Of a DNA stretch of 64,000 nt, positions 43,723 through 50,305 are shown one piece after another. The position numbers and the translations under genes were made by a program. Source of the stretch: Kibdelosporangium persicum (GTDB lineage Bacteria > Actinomycetota > Actinomycetes > Mycobacteriales > Pseudonocardiaceae); NCBI RefSeq assembly GCF_013280595.1, contig NZ_JAAATY010000002.1, positions 372,001 to 436,000 of the forward strand, in the 5' to 3' direction. The notes beneath the pieces are model-generated. The model searched no databases and had not been told where the DNA came from. It saw only the letters and a program-made list of their open reading frames with translations. How positions within the stretch are numbered: position 1 is the first letter of the stretch; each line of letters starts with the position of its first letter.

Positions 43723-43857
43723 TCAGGCGCGGTCGCTTGGTGTGACCTCCTTAACGGGTTGCCGTTGTTCCACCGCGTGCAACAGCAGCACGAGCGGCAC
43801 CGCCGCCAACGCGGCCAGCACCACGACCCCGAGCACGATCGCCATGACCTCCCACAT
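43723..43857 (-). CDS. Small single-pass membrane protein (44 aa)
   Basis: From ATG 43857, with GGAGGG directly upstream, the peptide is MWEVMAIVLGVVVLAALAAV followed by a few more hydrophobic residues and a charged tail (EQRQPVKEVTPSDRA). It has one transmembrane helix and a cytoplasmic or exposed C-terminus. Such peptides are common and often unannotated in actinobacteria. It is upstream of and co-directional with the SDR gene. Function unknown. Confidence 0.5.
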   Translation of the reverse strand: MWEVMAIVLGVVVLAALAAVPLVLLLHAVEQRQPVKEVTPSDRA

Positions 43858-44043
43858 GCCCTCCACTCTCGTCCGCGCAGCACCACGACCGCGTCGGCCG
43901 GCAGTGCGGTATTCGAGTCCTTCCGAGGGACGTCCCAGATCACCCACCGCTACGACTCAGGTCTGACGTCGCCCTGTCAGGGCAGCCCTTGCGTCAGCCG
44001 GGCTCGGGCGATAACACCCAACGGGAGACATCCGACTGTGTAC

Positions 44044-44063
44044 GTGTAGTGATCACTCGACAC
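44044..44063. promoter_or_regulatory. Possible Crp-type palindrome upstream of the Crp/Fnr gene
   Basis: AGTGATCACT (44048-44057) is a perfect 10-bp palindrome inside the looser dyad GTGTAGTGATCACTCGACAC, 19 bp upstream of the regulator start. The flanking GTGT and ACAC echo a Crp half-site arrangement. Autoregulation is inferred. Confidence 0.45.
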
Positions 44064-44075
44064 TAGGGGACCGCG

Positions 44076-44765
44076 TTGCCGGAGCAATGGCCGAAAGGCA
44101 CCCTGATGGCCGGCCTTTCCACACAGCATCGCGAGGAGTTGCTTTCTCTCGCACCGTCGATGCGGTATCCGGCGAATGCGGTCCTGCTCCGCCAGGGTGA
44201 GTCGAGCACGAACGTGTACTTGCTGCGCGGCAGCCCGAACGGGCACCTGGCGTGTGTCAAGGTGACTGCTTCGCTGCGCGACGGAACGGAGGCGTTGCTG
44301 GGCATCCGCGTCGTCGGCGACATCGTGGGAGAACTCGCGACACTACGCGAGACGCATCGAAGTGCGACGGTCACTACTTGCATGCCGATCGTTGTGCACG
44401 CGATCCCGAAGAACAGTTTCCAAGCGTTTCTCGATCGGCACAACAGTGCCTGGCAGGCGATCAGCCGGATGGTCGCCGACCGGCTTGACTGGGCGAACCG
44501 GCGAAGGCTCGACTTCGCCGCCTATGACGTACCTGTCCGGCTTGCCAGGGTGCTGATCGAATTGCGCGAACGATTGCATCAGGATGGCCGCGAGTTGGGA
44601 GTGGATCTGTCCCAGACCGAGCTCGGCAGGCTTATCGGTGCGAAAACCGATGCGGTCGGCATGGCCATCCGCAAGCTGGGGGCGCTCGGGCTCATTCGAT
44701 GGAGTTACCGTAAGGTAACCATTCTGAACCTCGACGCACTGTTGGAGTTCGCCGATCTTGCCTAA
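44076..44765 (+). CDS. Crp/Fnr-family regulator with intact cyclic-nucleotide pocket
   Basis: The TTG at 44076 gives 229 residues; the N-terminus PEQWPKGTLMAGLS fits the family better than a start at ATG 44106. The cNMP-binding barrel keeps the phosphate-binding cassette VGELATLRETHRSATV (G85, E86, R95, S96, A97), as in E. coli CRP. The C-terminal winged helix is LSQTELGRLIGAKTDAVGMA followed by RKLGALGLI. There are no Fnr-type Cys clusters. It is 99 bp upstream of a nucleotidyl-cyclase-like gene, so a local cyclic-nucleotide circuit is likely. Confidence 0.9.
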   Translation: MPEQWPKGTLMAGLSTQHREELLSLAPSMRYPANAVLLRQGESSTNVYLLRGSPNGHLACVKVTASLRDGTEALLGIRVVGDIVGELATLRETHRSATVTTCMPIVVHAIPKNSFQAFLDRHNSAWQAISRMVADRLDWANRRRLDFAAYDVPVRLARVLIELRERLHQDGRELGVDLSQTELGRLIGAKTDAVGMAIRKLGALGLIRWSYRKVTILNLDALLEFADLA

Positions 44766-44864
44766 CGAAATGTGGCAAACCCGTAGTTTTCCGTAGTTCC
44801 CGTTACTCCGCGCAGGCAAACTACCGTCCGATCGTGGCAGCCTCAGCCGAAGGACGTAGGTACG

Positions 44865-45593
44865 TTGCCTGTGGAAGAAGACTTCACTCGTCGCCTGTTC
44901 ATCGCCATGGACGCCAAGGGGTACGGGAGCGCGGATCACCTTCAGCAGAAAGACATTCAGGCCGCACTGCTACTGGCGGCGGACACCGCCGCGCTCCGCA
45001 GTGGACTCGACCGCTCCACTTGGGACAAGCAGCCCGGCGGCGATGGTGAACTCGCCGCGCTGCCCGCGGACATGAGTGGCATTGAGCCGAAGGTGGTCGA
45101 TGACTACCCGCGTGAATTCGCCGCCGCACTGTCCAAACACAACCACTCGCTGCGGCCGGCAATGCGGCTGCGCGTGCGGATGGCCATTCATTATGGGGTG
45201 GCGACTCCCGGACCGAACGGACACGTCGGCCAGGGGCCCGTTGTGGTCAGCCGGCTTGTGGACAGTGCGCCGGTGCGCGCGGTTCTCGCCGTGAACGACC
45301 AGATCGACTTCGTGGTCGTGCTGTCCCGCCAGGTCTACACAGACGTGGTGCTCCAGCGGCACACCTCGTTGCGGCCGGAGCACTTCCGTCGGGTCGCGGT
45401 CCAGAACAAGGAGTTCACCGAAGAGGCATGGGTGCGGGCTCCGGGACACGAGATTTCCGAGCTCAGTGTCGACGAGTCCGGGTCGGCCCCGGTGACGCCG
45501 CCCGCGTCCGGAGATCACCTGCACGCCTCGGTGATCAACAAAATGGACTACGTTCACGCGCCGAACTCGGTTTTCGGAGTCTCGAACCCCTGA
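44865..45593 (+). CDS. Class III nucleotidyl cyclase-like domain protein
   Basis: From TTG 44865 (AAGGA 10 nt upstream; GTG 44871 is an alternative) the protein has 242 residues. The first half follows the class III cyclase plan: RLFIAMDAKGYG places D16 at the first metal Asp, DKQPGGDGELAALP places D60 at the second, and MAIHYGVA is the dimer-strand region. In GPVVVSRLVDSA the Arg (R130) is kept but the usual Asn is Val. It may be an active, altered or signal-binding cyclase. Its C-terminal ~90 residues are unassigned. Its stop overlaps the NTPase start (TGATG). Confidence 0.75.
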   Translation: MPVEEDFTRRLFIAMDAKGYGSADHLQQKDIQAALLLAADTAALRSGLDRSTWDKQPGGDGELAALPADMSGIEPKVVDDYPREFAAALSKHNHSLRPAMRLRVRMAIHYGVATPGPNGHVGQGPVVVSRLVDSAPVRAVLAVNDQIDFVVVLSRQVYTDVVLQRHTSLRPEHFRRVAVQNKEFTEEAWVRAPGHEISELSVDESGSAPVTPPASGDHLHASVINKMDYVHAPNSVFGVSNP

Positions 45594-47611
45594 TGACCGA
45601 AACTCCCGAGAAGACGGAGAGTCCGTCAGCGACCGCAGCCGGTCCCGCCGCGAGCAAACAGGCCGACAGTTCGCGTGAGCAGATCAAAGGCGCCGCCGTG
45701 AACTTCACCATCGAGACGCTCAATGCGCATGGCTCGGTGTTCGGTGCGACCGAGCGGCCGCCTGCCCGGCTGCGTGCCGACACCGGACGGCTCGATGACC
45801 CGGAAATTGCGAAAGAACTTCGGGTGTTCGTGCCGCCAACGTCCTTCGACGACGCGTTGGCCTCGCTGAGCAGTGACCACGCAGTCGTTCTGCAAGGGGA
45901 TGCTGGGACAGGAAAGCGGTTGTCGGCCATCGCGTTGCTGCGGGAGGTGACGGACGGGCCGTTGGCCCAGCTCTCGCCGATCATCACCTTGAAGCAGTTG
46001 GCCGAGCGCGAGTACGCCAAGAACAACGGATACATAGTCGTCGACCGCAAAACGGAAGACCGCGCCGCGGACACTGACTTCACCTGGCGCACTGTTCGTG
46101 ACCGGGTCCGTGACCACGGAGCTTTTCTGGTGGTCACCGCCACCTGCAAGGCGGACAAGGCTGCCGCCGAAGCCGTGGCGCACATCGACTGGCAACAGCC
46201 GGAGTTCAGGGATGTCCTGCGAGCACATCTGGACACCATGGCGGACCCGGAAACGGTGATCGCCGAACTGGTGGAGATGTGGCCAGGCTGCCGCAAGCTC
46301 GCGGACGTCGCCGCCGTGGCCAAGGGCATTGCCGACGGCAAGGATCTGACGGCCGCGTTGGATTTGCTGGATACGACGTCATCGCAGGAGGTGCACCAGT
46401 GGTTCAACGAACCACGGTCGCGCCAGGAAGTGCTCAGCGTGACGGCACTGGCCTTTTTGGCGGGAGTCAGTCAGCGCACGTTCGAGTCCCTCCTGGCCGC
46501 CCTGGCGTCGAAGGCCGACGAGTTCATCCCGGTCGACAGCGGACCCGAGGATCGGCCCACGCCCACCGATCTGATGCCACAGAACCGGCGTCAGCTCTAC
46601 CCCGAGGACGGACTGGTCAAGGTGGTGCGTGCCGACGCCCAAGGCGTCGCACGCCACCAAGTCCACTTCGCGGAGGGCAGGTATCGGCAGCATGTGCTGG
46701 CCGAACTGTGGCAACGCATGGACGCGCCCTTCTGGGACGCCGTCAGGGCTTGGCTTCCTGACGTCATCGAGGAACACGGCCTCGAAGTCGCGTCCGGGCT
46801 CACCGAACTGGCCAGGACGGCTTTCGACGAGGTCGACGATCTGATCTGGCCGTGGTCCGACGGTGAACTGGGCTGGCCCGGCCAGATCACCGCGATCTAC
46901 GTGCTGTGGCTGATGTCCTTCGACGACACGCTGGCACCGGAGGCCTTGCAACGCGCGACGATGTGGGCCAACAGCACTCCGGCGCGGCGGTGGACGGCTG
47001 CTGTCTCGTTCAGCCAGGTCCTTGGTGTCCGGTATCCCCATGAGGCGGCCAAGAGACTGTGGCAGCTGATCAGGCAGAGCGACGCCGTCGCAGGGGACGC
47101 TTACTACGCGCTAGCCGCACTGTTCTGCACGCTCACCGAGGAGACCGACGACGCGGGCATCGTGTTGGTTCTGCTTGACGGACAACTCAACAAAACGAGG
47201 CCGAAACCGTGGCTGAGGAAGGTCACGATGACGGCGACCGTGATGGTCCTTCTGGCCACTGAGCGCACAGGGCGTTCGGCAGTCATCCGCTACCTCCATG
47301 ACCGCCCGGAGAAAGCAGGTGTACTCGGCAGGCTTTGGGCAGCTGTCATCCGTAACCGTCCGACCAGGAAGAACGCGCTCATCGCCCTGCGGGACGGGCT
47401 GAAGGACCTCAGGGATATCAGCGATGACCCGGGCAGTCTCGCCCGCACCTTGGGCGAGGCGCTGGCGAGCAGCCTCCCGGCCGACGAACACGAGCCCTTA
47501 CGCCGGGATCTGGCCTCGCTGGAGGCCCGCAACCGCAAGGACACGTCTCCCTTGATCGAGCAGCTACTCGACGCGATAACGCAGATAACGCAGGAGAAGG
47601 AAACGGGATGA
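45593..47611 (+). CDS. P-loop NTPase with helical C-terminal region
   Basis: The 672-residue protein has a Walker A, VVLQGDAGTGKRLSA (G102-R109; Arg replaces the usual Ser/Thr), and a possible Walker B, GYIVVDRKTED (D150). After about residue 260 it is long and helical, repeat-like, rich in Trp and Leu, and without a named domain. The N-terminal ~35 residues are Ser/Thr/Glu-rich and probably disordered. It might be a STAND- or AAA-like switch protein. It overlaps the cyclase-like gene by 1 bp and the SPFH gene by 4 bp, so it is the centre of a coupled cassette. Confidence 0.72.
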   Translation: MTETPEKTESPSATAAGPAASKQADSSREQIKGAAVNFTIETLNAHGSVFGATERPPARLRADTGRLDDPEIAKELRVFVPPTSFDDALASLSSDHAVVLQGDAGTGKRLSAIALLREVTDGPLAQLSPIITLKQLAEREYAKNNGYIVVDRKTEDRAADTDFTWRTVRDRVRDHGAFLVVTATCKADKAAAEAVAHIDWQQPEFRDVLRAHLDTMADPETVIAELVEMWPGCRKLADVAAVAKGIADGKDLTAALDLLDTTSSQEVHQWFNEPRSRQEVLSVTALAFLAGVSQRTFESLLAALASKADEFIPVDSGPEDRPTPTDLMPQNRRQLYPEDGLVKVVRADAQGVARHQVHFAEGRYRQHVLAELWQRMDAPFWDAVRAWLPDVIEEHGLEVASGLTELARTAFDEVDDLIWPWSDGELGWPGQITAIYVLWLMSFDDTLAPEALQRATMWANSTPARRWTAAVSFSQVLGVRYPHEAAKRLWQLIRQSDAVAGDAYYALAALFCTLTEETDDAGIVLVLLDGQLNKTRPKPWLRKVTMTATVMVLLATERTGRSAVIRYLHDRPEKAGVLGRLWAAVIRNRPTRKNALIALRDGLKDLRDISDDPGSLARTLGEALASSLPADEHEPLRRDLASLEARNRKDTSPLIEQLLDAITQITQEKETG

Positions 47612-48882
47612 GCTACCCGATCGTGCAACAGCGACCGCTTGACCCGTCCCAGAAGCGTGGATGGCTTGGCTTGCGCGGACGGGCACGCGAGTCTGGTGAA
47701 CTGCCCAAGCCCGCCGCGCACCAGGTCCTGGTCTACCGGGTCAACGGCCACTACGTGGTGGACAACGCCGAACGGGCGCTGAACTCCGAGGACGTGGTCG
47801 AAGCCTCGCACGTGAGCGTGGTCGACATGACCCGCAACGCCGAGGTCATGGTGCAACTGGGCATTCCGTCGAAGGACGCCGACCAGTTCACCATGCAGGT
47901 CACGTTCGTCTGCACCGTCTCCAACCCGGCAGTGGTGGTGCGTGAGGGGATGACCGACGCGCAGGCCATGCTTCGTGCGTACCTCAAGAGCCACAACCGG
48001 ATCTTCGAGCTGGGGCTGGCGCACAAGCTCGACGACGTCAACGAGGTCCGGCGGAACGTCAATGCTCAGGTCAAGGCGTTCGCGACGGTCAAACCGCCGG
48101 TGATGCCCGGGATCGACATCGAAGTCCGCAGTGTCGAGGTACTGACTCCGGCCGGACTGGCCGAATTCGAACGCAAACGCACGCAGCAGCAACGCCAGCA
48201 TCGGCTCGTGGCCGAGCAACAGGGGTTCGACCAGGCACGGGAGTTGGACCAGGACGAACACACCCAGCTGCGGTCCACCAAACAACAGCGCCACGACCTC
48301 AGTCGTGAGGCGGAACGCAAGGACTTCGACAGGTACCAGCGGCGCGAGGACCGCCTGGAGTTGAACGAGCTGTCCGAGGCTATTCGCAACGACCCGCAGC
48401 GGGTGTTGCTGCTGGCCTGGGAACAGGGCCTGCTCGGCCCAGTCGAGATGGCGGAACGGATGTCGGCCGAAGCACGTCGGGTCGAGGACAACGCGCGCGA
48501 GGACCGGGCGGCCGAACTCGAGCACAAACGGGCGATGGAACGTGCCCAGTTGGAGCAGTCCACGGAAGATCGTCGATGGCGACGGGACATCGAGCAGCAA
48601 CAGCTGCTCTGGCGGCGCGAAGACGAGAGCTTCCGGCGTGAGGACGTCCGTCAGCAGCGGCAGATCAAACTCGAGGTGATCAGGGAACTCGGCAAGCATG
48701 GGTACCTCGACATGACAAATCTCGACCCCAACCGCCTGGTGGACGAACTCACCACCAAGGACGACGCGCCGCAGGTGGGCCCCGCGGACGAAACGCCCGC
48801 TTTGCCCAGTGCCGCGGACGTGGACCTGGAGGACGACGAGGACGACGAGGACACGGGCGTGAGGGAAGAGGATGCCGGTTAA
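47608..48882 (+). CDS. SPFH/band-7-like protein with long coiled coil
   Basis: The 424-residue protein has a band-7-like domain at about residues 35-180 (QVLVYRVNGHYVVDNAERAL, FTMQVTFVCTVSNPAVVV, INVQ-like GIDIEVRSVEVLTPAGLAEF). A charged coiled coil follows (about 180-355, rich in Arg, Glu and Gln), and the tail is acidic (DLEDDEDDEDTG). SPFH proteins form rings on membranes. There is no N-terminal transmembrane helix, so it may be held by the DUF4407 protein encoded next, whose gene overlaps it by 11 bp. Confidence 0.75.
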   Translation: MSYPIVQQRPLDPSQKRGWLGLRGRARESGELPKPAAHQVLVYRVNGHYVVDNAERALNSEDVVEASHVSVVDMTRNAEVMVQLGIPSKDADQFTMQVTFVCTVSNPAVVVREGMTDAQAMLRAYLKSHNRIFELGLAHKLDDVNEVRRNVNAQVKAFATVKPPVMPGIDIEVRSVEVLTPAGLAEFERKRTQQQRQHRLVAEQQGFDQARELDQDEHTQLRSTKQQRHDLSREAERKDFDRYQRREDRLELNELSEAIRNDPQRVLLLAWEQGLLGPVEMAERMSAEARRVEDNAREDRAAELEHKRAMERAQLEQSTEDRRWRRDIEQQQLLWRREDESFRREDVRQQRQIKLEVIRELGKHGYLDMTNLDPNRLVDELTTKDDAPQVGPADETPALPSAADVDLEDDEDDEDTGVREEDAG

Positions 48883-50206
48883 GCACCACATTGTCAGCCG
48901 TGCCCTGCCTGCTGACGTTCCACTCGGAACGTACCGTCCGGCTGTCTCGGTCACCGGCCCCAGCACATGGCTGCGGCGGGTCGCTGGGATCCGCGAGGAG
49001 ATCCTCGATTGGGTGCCCGAAGAGCGGCCCAAGTACACCAGGCTGGGCGCGATCGTGCTCAACACCGGTCTGCTCGCCGGGATCTCACTGCTGGTCGCCC
49101 TTGCGCGGCTGGTGGACGCGCCTTGGGTGGTGATCCTTCCCGCGGCCATGCTGTGGGCGTTGTTGATCATCACGTTGGACAGCTGGCTGGTGGCCAGCAC
49201 GCACGGGATATCCAGTGTGAGCAGAGTGGTGAAGTTCCTGCCTCGCCTGGTGATCTCCGTGCTGATCGGCGCGGTGATCGCGGAACCGCTGTTGCTGTGG
49301 GTGTTCCAGCCGGCCATCCACAAGGAGGTTCAGGACTTCCGTCAGCAGGAACTGATCAGCTACGAGAGCGCGTTGCGCAACTGCAATCCGCCGAGTGGTG
49401 AACTCGTCGCGAACCCCGCCTGTGCGGAGATGCTCGTGAACATCCCCAACTCCCCGCAAGCCGCCCGGGACGAGCTGGCCACGGTCGTCAAGAATCGCGA
49501 CGAGCACAAGGCGATGGTCGAAGGCCTCACCGCGCAGTGGGAGCAGAAGGAAAAACTGGCTCGGGACGAATGCGCGGGTACCAGCGGCCAAGGGCTGTCC
49601 GGGGTTGTCGGCAACGGCCCGGAATGCCGGCGTAACCGGGAGATCGCCGACAAGTTCAAGGTGGACAGCCAGCTGACCAAGCACCAGGAGAAACTGCTGG
49701 CGTTGAACAGCCTGGTCGACGACATGACCAGGAAGAGGGCGGACGCCGAACAGACAGCCGCCCAGCAGATCAGTACTGCAATCAGGACGAAGGTCGACGA
49801 GAAGCGCAGTCATCAGAACAAGATCGGAATCCTCGACGAAGCAGCCGCGCTGGGGCGTCTGTCGGACCAGAGCGCATTCGTGTTCGTGGCCCAATGGCTG
49901 GTGCGGTTGTTGCTCGTCGCGATCGACTGCATGCCTGTGTTGGCCAAGCTGATGAGCGGTTCGACCAAGTACGACGTTCTCGTCTCCAGGCAGATGGACA
50001 CGGCCAACCGGCTGCATGACAAGCACGTGACCATGCGTGAACGTCAGGACGCCGGTGACATGGACGTGCAGTTGCACCGGTTCGACCACAACCAGCGAAC
50101 TCGGATCAAGAACATTGACGAAGAGGACCGGGCGGCTCGGGCCAAACAAGCAGCCGACCTGGACGCTGAGATCGACGCACTGGCCGCGAAACTCCGCGAG
50201 CAGTAG
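48872..50206 (+). CDS. DUF4407 membrane protein
   Basis: The 444-residue protein has three transmembrane helices near the N-terminus (about 58-80, 84-104, 123-146). A large exposed coiled-coil region with Cys pairs follows (about 150-320), then a fourth helix (near 325-350, AQWLVRLLLVAIDCMPVLAK) and a charged coiled-coil tail. This matches DUF4407. The Cys-containing segment probably faces outside. The start overlaps the SPFH gene, and a strong terminator 25 bp after the stop ends the cassette. Confidence 0.8.
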   Translation: MPVKHHIVSRALPADVPLGTYRPAVSVTGPSTWLRRVAGIREEILDWVPEERPKYTRLGAIVLNTGLLAGISLLVALARLVDAPWVVILPAAMLWALLIITLDSWLVASTHGISSVSRVVKFLPRLVISVLIGAVIAEPLLLWVFQPAIHKEVQDFRQQELISYESALRNCNPPSGELVANPACAEMLVNIPNSPQAARDELATVVKNRDEHKAMVEGLTAQWEQKEKLARDECAGTSGQGLSGVVGNGPECRRNREIADKFKVDSQLTKHQEKLLALNSLVDDMTRKRADAEQTAAQQISTAIRTKVDEKRSHQNKIGILDEAAALGRLSDQSAFVFVAQWLVRLLLVAIDCMPVLAKLMSGSTKYDVLVSRQMDTANRLHDKHVTMRERQDAGDMDVQLHRFDHNQRTRIKNIDEEDRAARAKQAADLDAEIDALAAKLREQ

Positions 50207-50231
50207 TTGACGCCCGTCCTGAGGACCTGGT

Positions 50232-50257
50232 GAAGGCGGCCGTCATCGGCCGCCTTC
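50232..50257 (+). terminator. Terminator of the cyclase/NTPase/SPFH cassette
   Basis: GAAGGCGGCCG (50232-50242) and CGGCCGCCTTC (50247-50257) form a perfect 11-bp stem with loop TCAT, 26 bp downstream of the DUF4407 stop and well separated from the folD leader. Confidence 0.85.
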
Positions 50258-50305
50258 GTGGTCCGCGCGACTGCGGACATGGCGGTCCACCGATTACCAT
50301 GAGGC

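Follow-up and report, generated by a model that had tools for sequence, protein, structure and literature searches.

Pycsar, a PycC cyclase combined with PycTM or PycTIR, is one of several described systems that share components with a five-gene cassette in the genome of the actinobacterium Kibdelosporangium persicum. The cassette encodes, in this order, a Crp/Fnr-family regulator, a class III nucleotide cyclase-like protein, a STAND-type NTPase, an SPFH-like protein and a DUF4407 membrane protein; it lies in a window of 64,000 nucleotides, the whole stretch of DNA analysed here (contig NZ_JAAATY010000002.1, positions 372,001 to 436,000; contig C2 of the 10.35-Mb genome). The cassette resembles Pycsar (PMC9117128) in its predicted class III cyclase fold, its cyclic-nucleotide-binding protein, and the PycTM-like genes that accompany 12 of 35 relatives of the window's type; it differs in that the window cyclase has no PycC match, a Crp transcription factor serves as receiver, a STAND NTPase is added together with SPFH and DUF4407 proteins, and PycTM is absent from the source genome. 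With the BASS amyloid NLR signalosomes, compared by arrangement, it shares a short motif pair at the effector C-terminus and the STAND N-terminus, encoded by adjacent genes in filamentous actinobacteria; its probable effector is a nucleotide cyclase, whereas for BASS the papers name Bell, CHAT and TIR partners, and "cyclase" was counted 0 times in PMC7889193, PMC8086366 and PMC12261475. Avs5 (AVAST type 5; PMC12931631) has an nSTAND3 NTPase with helical repeats, which that of the cassette resembles, and was the top Foldseek match of the modelled relative, but its Sir2 effector is fused, whereas in the cassette the probable effector, a cyclase, is encoded by a gene of its own and SPFH is found at the sensor end. 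The PspA-YdjGHI operon of Bacillus subtilis (PMC8581546) likewise joins a soluble SPFH protein to integral membrane partners in one stress operon, but it has PspA, and STAND or cyclase proteins are unmentioned in the account of it there. Finally, the conflict systems of Kaur et al. 2020 (PMC7159879) couple cyclase and Band-7 domains and use homotypic adaptor domains in actinobacteria, but those with cyclase and Band-7 centre on MoxR-vWA, and "DUF4407" and "amyloid" were counted 0 times in the text. The parts of the K. persicum cassette are of known kinds; no account of their combination, or of a motif-paired cyclase, was found in the titles, abstracts and passages of the open-licence papers searched.

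We incline, with reserve, to reading the cassette as a self-contained, patchily distributed, membrane-anchored STAND signalling module with a nucleotide signal as its output and Crp as the reader of that signal. Its most distinctive feature is a stretch of about 20 residues common to the C-terminal tail of the cyclase-like protein and the N-terminal head of the NTPase. Across 26 window-type loci (window included), cognate tail/head pairs scored 49.2 against 33.5 for permuted pairs, a result reached in 0 of 20,000 permutations; when 66 loci were cut to a divergent set of 35 with NTPases less than 40% identical, the scores were 49.0 and 29.4 (standard deviation 1.37; again 0 of 20,000), and the cognate partner ranked first in 16 of the 35, with a median rank of second. 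Six controls, drawn from other parts of the same proteins and from the pairs Crp tail/cyclase head, NTPase tail/SPFH head and SPFH tail/DUF4407 head, were null (absolute z ≤1.0). The kind of motif differs between loci yet stays matched, as VTGGDMTFGDHHGDK with VTGGDITHGDHHGDK in L141 and GNVNGDVVGRDK with GDVTGDVVGRDS in L028; L029, L033, L109 and L135 have no tail/head match. A matched motif at the C-terminus of an effector and the N-terminus of a STAND protein, encoded by adjacent genes, is what has been reported for bacterial amyloid signalling (PMC7889193, PMC8086366, PMC12261475), and judged from its sequence the cyclase/NTPase pair, which combines all of these features, has that geometry. 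The Pfam matches of the window proteins and of the NTPase and cyclase relatives include no amyloid-motif family.

The slot occupied by the cyclase is exchangeable. At two loci (L046, L108) it is held by a BTAD transcription factor, identified by Pfam, whose tail matches the NTPase head, ranking 2 and 8 of 35. L029 (profile match), L030 and L038 (both by eye) have a BTAD-type protein whose cyclase domain is degenerate, L033 a TIR-like protein (by eye) with a degenerate cyclase domain (by profile), and L131, L135 and L137-L140 TIR-like proteins (by eye). Six non-cyclase loci, taken as a group, matched tail to head above chance (192 of 20,000), with L135 unmatched. BTAD and TIR domains in the effector slot are outputs in known STAND proteins. 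Two further proteins of the source genome (L039, L042) carry a cyclase domain N-terminal to NB-ARC and TPR, and three relatives have their SPFH domain joined to the C-terminus of the NTPase in one protein. STAND proteins are described as running from an N-terminal effector through the NTPase to a C-terminal sensor (PMC12931631); this order, the slot exchange and the NB-ARC-TPR fusions together place the cyclase at the effector position and SPFH/DUF4407 at the sensor position. Because BTAD or TIR proteins, some with matched tails, take the place of the cyclase at certain loci, the cyclase is probably the output of the cassette. A preliminary description of this DNA had proposed a path from nucleotide signal through NTPase switch to membrane assembly; its order is probably reversed, given the slot exchange, the NB-ARC-TPR fusions, the motif pairing of the cyclase with the NTPase N-terminus and the SPFH fusions at the sensor end.

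The co-occurrence of the four downstream genes in other genomes, on which the preliminary description depended, was borne out. A DUF4407-alignment scan of actinobacterial genomes yielded 28 loci, 27 of them testable (L050, at a contig end, was left out), and gene content was checked by tblastn. NTPase and SPFH genes lie just upstream of DUF4407 in 26 of the 27 (the SPFH match of L059 is short), the sole locus without them being L071, a partial DUF4407 in Frankia; the complete five-gene set is present in 22, Crp being absent from L046, L057, L059, L067 and L071, and the cyclase from L046. The loci come from Amycolatopsis, Plantactinospora, Kutzneria, Allorhizocola, Lentzea, Actinomadura, Herbihabitans, Saccharothrix, Kitasatospora, Kibdelosporangium, Streptomyces, Microbispora, Nonomuraea, Labedaea, Streptosporangium, Actinokineospora and Goodfellowiella. 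A search begun with the NTPase found a relative at 1e-10 in 41 of 394 genomes of the class, and relatives better than 1e-100 in 12 genomes at 13 places including the window; among the 12 other places, two of which are loci L061 and L068 again, DUF4407 is present at 11, and at 11 an SPFH gene was called in its expected position. Duplicates of named loci (L024-L026, L102, L110) were removed, and a plasmid search with the NTPase returned one chromosome-sized record. Two relatives without DUF4407 end differently: L115 (10444-12156) in an integral protein that contains HELGH and by eye resembles an M48 peptidase, and L118 (1987-5976) with a weak Band_7 match, PP2C and a sub-cut-off APH match. The source genome itself holds a second system of the same NTPase family (G000:C10, about 118830-123290; L038:6830-11288), made up of a BTAD-type protein (by eye), an nSTAND3-like NTPase and a weak Band_7 protein.

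The patchy distribution has a local counterpart. Seven genomes of the same genus were available, two of them without a close folD match; in all five others, the cassette is missing at the homologous site and the flanking SDR and folD genes are adjacent. Flank homology stops at about 43967-43975 of the window and picks up again at about 50283-50295, delimiting an islet of about 6.3 kb with no integrase among its genes. Gain of the islet here would be a simpler explanation than loss in the others.

The folds of the proteins are predicted from profiles or from the model of a relative. For the cyclase, the preliminary assignment is supported by a family profile (16 members); the profile matches the Ma1120 cyclase (PDB 5d0g, 5.6e-6) and 3mr7 (1.7e-3), the weak RecA stretches in the same PDB list (3cmt, 1.6e-4) being a summing artefact of repeats, and Pfam gave no match for the window protein. 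Both metal Asp residues announced for it (D16, D60) are present, and the usual Asn is indeed replaced, by Val126. Among 55 family members the Asp pair is kept in 53 of 53 readable rows each and the transition-state Arg in 52 of 54, while the transition-state Asn is retained by 14 of 54 readable relatives, all of them outside the window's type. The missing Asn is the mark of a subtype of cyclase, and because it is absent throughout the window's type, these cyclases may bind rather than make a nucleotide. Membership in PycC was rejected, as PADLOC gave no match at E up to 1. Elsewhere in the genome (G000:C9; L036:9770-11344), an orphan Crp and cyclase-like pair, with no NTPase found adjoining, includes a cyclase 46% identical to that of the window.

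Against nSTAND3 in Pfam the window NTPase scores 4e-4 and 20.4 bits, below the curated cut-off of 27.2 bits, while 10 of 14 family members match at E up to 0.01, the best at 1.2e-7. AlphaFold was applied to a Herbihabitans protein in which NTPase and SPFH are naturally fused (795 residues, 24-row alignment, mean predicted local distance difference test score (pLDDT) 88.1), to which the window NTPase is 34% and the window SPFH domain 42% identical. Foldseek matched this model to the Avs5 filament first (1.5e-5), and to SAMD9, Avs4, archaeal STAND ATPases (2qen) and MalT, with importin-type repeat proteins interspersed; human stomatin and prohibitin were matched weakly, though at probability 1.00. 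The NTPase fold proposed earlier is supported in this way, as one of STAND type, and so is the SPFH fold, through the fused relative. Profile searches of the PDB with the NTPase and SPFH-like families gave nothing convincing, Pfam Band_7/SPFH did not match the window SPFH-like protein and matched 1 of 14 relatives at 0.0016, and hhalign against the canonical SPFH proteins of the source genome returned a probability of 0.5%, or 16% with a closer bridge, in register. The odd GKR P-loop of the NTPase (GDAGTGKR), likewise noted earlier, reflects a family-wide trait: in 36 of 36 readable rows, out of 40 for the window's type, GK is followed by Arg, Gln, Trp, His, Tyr or Gly and never by Ser/Thr. 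Because the Walker A Ser/Thr is absent, NTPases of this type may not hydrolyse ATP. The DUF4407 protein matches its Pfam profile at 1.8e-75; its N-terminal part (26% of the query) has matches of 32% identity in six Prevotella phage Lak megaphage records (H2-H7). The regulator matches cNMP_binding (2e-13) and HTH_Crp_2 (8e-11) and contains the cyclic nucleotide monophosphate (cNMP) cassette (GE...RSA) attributed to it; the strict phosphate-binding pattern recurs in 28 of 46 Crp family members, with looser forms in many others.

A palindrome-type site ahead of the cyclase gene may connect the regulator with the genes downstream. The test of this site was limited to 30 loci with both cyclase and NTPase called, and its matrix was trained only on loci less than 60% identical to the locus scored. 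The region upstream of the cyclase fell within the top 1% of 490 background regions at 19 of the 30 loci (window included), a result that is circular to the extent that the consensus used to pick the training sites had itself been derived from part of these loci; for the window, the held-out score was reached by 1 of 490 background regions. The misses include loci of Lentzea and Herbihabitans with two Crps, and a consensus-free palindrome search was little above chance (p<0.05 in 7 of 59 regions). The palindrome is presumably a Crp operator, with Crp binding inferred from the site and its position. A different CRP-like palindrome, TGTGCACACGGTCACA, was seen by eye before the cyclase in L114, L115, L117, L125 and L129.

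The five genes were found where the preliminary description had placed them, all on the + strand, with 99 bp between the Crp and cyclase-like genes and successive overlaps of 1, 4 and 11 bp from the cyclase to the DUF4407 gene (Table 1). The "one strong terminator" given for their end is real as a G+C-rich hairpin, but it has no T-run and was not listed by the terminator scan; a sigma-70 promoter scan gave no match. The flanking genes look metabolic, with a Rieske dioxygenase (Pfam) and SDR, FolD and aldo-keto reductase proteins (read from the sequences). A small hydrophobic open reading frame on the - strand (window 43723-43947) adjoins the islet and is 60% identical in one of the five same-genus genomes.

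Table 1. Features of the cassette and its surroundings, in window coordinates.
Feature	Position	Strand	Basis or remark
Islet	43968..50282	.	five genes, upstream region and end hairpin; flank comparison with five same-genus genomes
Crp/Fnr-family regulator, cNMP-binding domain and winged helix-turn-helix	44076..44765	+	Pfam; phosphate-binding cassette GELATLRETHRSA
Imperfect 22-bp palindrome-type site AAACCCGTAGTTTTCCGTAGTT, candidate Crp operator	44777..44798	.	13/18 consensus positions
Class III nucleotide cyclase-like protein	44865..45593	+	TTG start 44865; gene caller picked 44871 instead
Cyclase-like C-terminal tail motif ASVINKMDYVHAPNSVFGVS	45525..45584	+	paired scoring
STAND-type NTPase (nSTAND3-like), helical repeats, GKR P-loop	45593..47611	+	Pfam; relative's model and Foldseek
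NTPase N-terminal head motif AAVNFTIETLNAHGSVFGAT, partner of cyclase tail	45692..45751	+	paired scoring
SPFH-like N-terminal domain (~residues 1-180), charged tail	47608..48882	+	no transmembrane helix by hydropathy
DUF4407 integral membrane protein	48872..50206	+	~4 transmembrane helices, ~190-residue loop with four invariant Cys
G+C-rich hairpin AAGGCGGCCG-TCAT-CGGCCGCCTT	50233..50256	+	10-bp stem 3' of last gene, read from sequence

If the cassette is a STAND signalling module of the kind favoured above, its membrane and sensor end would consist of the integral DUF4407 protein, with its cysteine-bearing outer loop, and the soluble SPFH-like protein, and its switch would be the STAND NTPase with its helical repeats. 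On activation, by envelope damage or by phage, the head motif of the NTPase would engage the tail motif of the cyclase, like for like and perhaps as an amyloid; class III cyclases act as dimers, and this engagement would cluster the cyclase domains, whereupon a cyclic mononucleotide would be made or bound. Crp would read the nucleotide and control the cyclase-NTPase-SPFH-DUF4407 operon from the palindrome ahead of it. In relatives, a PycTM-like membrane effector probably responds to the same signal as well, and either a BTAD transcription factor or a TIR domain could stand in for the cyclase/Crp output.

The PycTM-like neighbours raise the question of defence. At 20 of 71 loci (12 of 35 window-type loci and 8 of 36 others) such a gene is found no more than 6.5 kb from the NTPase, as counted with a simple gene caller of our own that missed some genes, so that L044 and L045 fall outside the count. 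In six of the 12 window-type loci (L053, L055, L056, L060, L103, L106) the PycTM-like gene stands between Crp and cyclase; another of the 12, L107, has no DUF4407. Of the 20 neighbours, 14 are recognised as PycTM by Pfam (E up to 0.01), against a background of 18 PF18967 places in 14 of 148 genomes of the class, four of these places being beside L107, L112, L121 and L136. This association makes a real nucleotide signal in the family more likely, and leaves it unproved for the window copy. It would also suit a STAND-gated, Pycsar-like antiphage system, in which phage damage to the envelope activates the cyclase, PycTM kills or arrests the cell, Crp only boosts expression, and the window copy either no longer has PycTM or relies on a different effector. 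We think this somewhat unlikely: the nSTAND3/Avs5-like NTPase, the islet and patchy spread, and the PADLOC matches of the window Crp to PycTIR and PycC, which fall within its cNMP-domain half, speak for it, but the cyclase has no PADLOC match of its own, the source genome lacks PycTM, and the neighbours of the window copy look metabolic, so that a defence island is unsupported there. PADLOC matched 82 families at 1e-10 among 94 flank proteins of related loci, chosen from 132 after some spurious open reading frames and repeats were dropped and the window folD added; the best 25 of the 82 families have one or two members each, some are generic (UvrD-type helicases), and the comparison had no control set.

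An envelope-stress regulator outside defence, in which SPFH and DUF4407 watch the membrane and cyclase and Crp tune transcription in the manner of Psp, is a doubtful alternative as well. That one operon encodes both a soluble SPFH protein and its membrane partners repeats the layout of YdjI with YdjG/H (PMC8581546), plain BTAD transcription factors serve as the output in L046 and L108, an operator-like site precedes the operon, and defence neighbours were not seen at the window copy; the PycTM association, the TIR-type relatives and the islet-type spread, however, are closer to conflict systems, and the family is patchy, occurring in about a tenth of the class genomes at the 1e-10 level given above. 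Defence and envelope stress cannot be told apart from sequence, and the likeness to a conflict or membrane-stress system seen in the preliminary description holds to that extent: it is plausible from the nSTAND3/Avs5-type NTPase, SPFH, the PycTM neighbours and the islet, but the metabolic flanks give it no defence-island support. That the cyclase-like protein is instead the input, a dead domain that binds a nucleotide and acts through the motif on the NTPase and on an SPFH/DUF4407 ring as effector, as first proposed, is improbable, since the absence of the Asn from the window's type, the degenerate cyclase domains of some BTAD and TIR variants (partly by eye) and the position of the DUF4407 membrane protein at the close of the operon are met by the BTAD and TIR proteins in the same slot, the STAND order, the fusion of SPFH to the C-terminal sensor end of the NTPase and the retention of metal Asp and Arg.

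Several observations weigh against the STAND module with nucleotide output and Crp reader. The motif pair of the window is modest, with 20 of 5000 shuffles scoring as high and the cognate partner at rank 3 of 35; the tails of L029, L033 and L135 are unmatched to their heads (ranks 35, 27 and 25 of 35); and in the relative's model a helix (residues 3-19, pLDDT about 65), not strands, runs into the head motif, part of which is overlapped by a low-confidence stretch (21-36). The cyclases of the window's type are without the transition-state Asn and the NTPase without the Walker A Ser/Thr. The structural model of NTPase and SPFH is that of a relative and not of the window proteins, its query-normalised Foldseek TM-scores are low (0.12-0.20) because the fusion has several domains, and the SPFH matches have E-values of only 0.012-0.014. 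Eleven of the 30 operator regions lie outside the 1%, the consensus of the training sites comes from the same family, and palindrome matches also precede cyclases without a nearby Crp call (L109, L111, L112, L067). Finally, PF18967 (PycTM) is absent from the source genome, in which no genome-wide search for PycTIR was made.

A bolder form of this reading, put forward tentatively, is that the cassette represents a new class of inflammasome-like signalling in prokaryotes, in which a membrane-anchored STAND/SPFH/DUF4407 sensor templates the assembly and activation of a cyclase through exchangeable prion-like motif pairs and the messenger reaches a transcription factor and, in relatives, a Pycsar membrane effector; if true, amyloid NLR signalling and cyclic-nucleotide immunity would become parts of a single pathway. 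The bacterial outputs of amyloid-type STAND signalosomes are largely unknown, as are the upstream sensors of cyclic-nucleotide defence, and the two fields meet in this cassette. A reporter placed behind the operator-like palindrome would allow the output to be measured. Should the motif pair behave as predicted, a link from sensor to cyclase would be named, DUF4407 would be given a role, and dozens of naturally varied pairs would be at hand for the study of like-for-like specificity.

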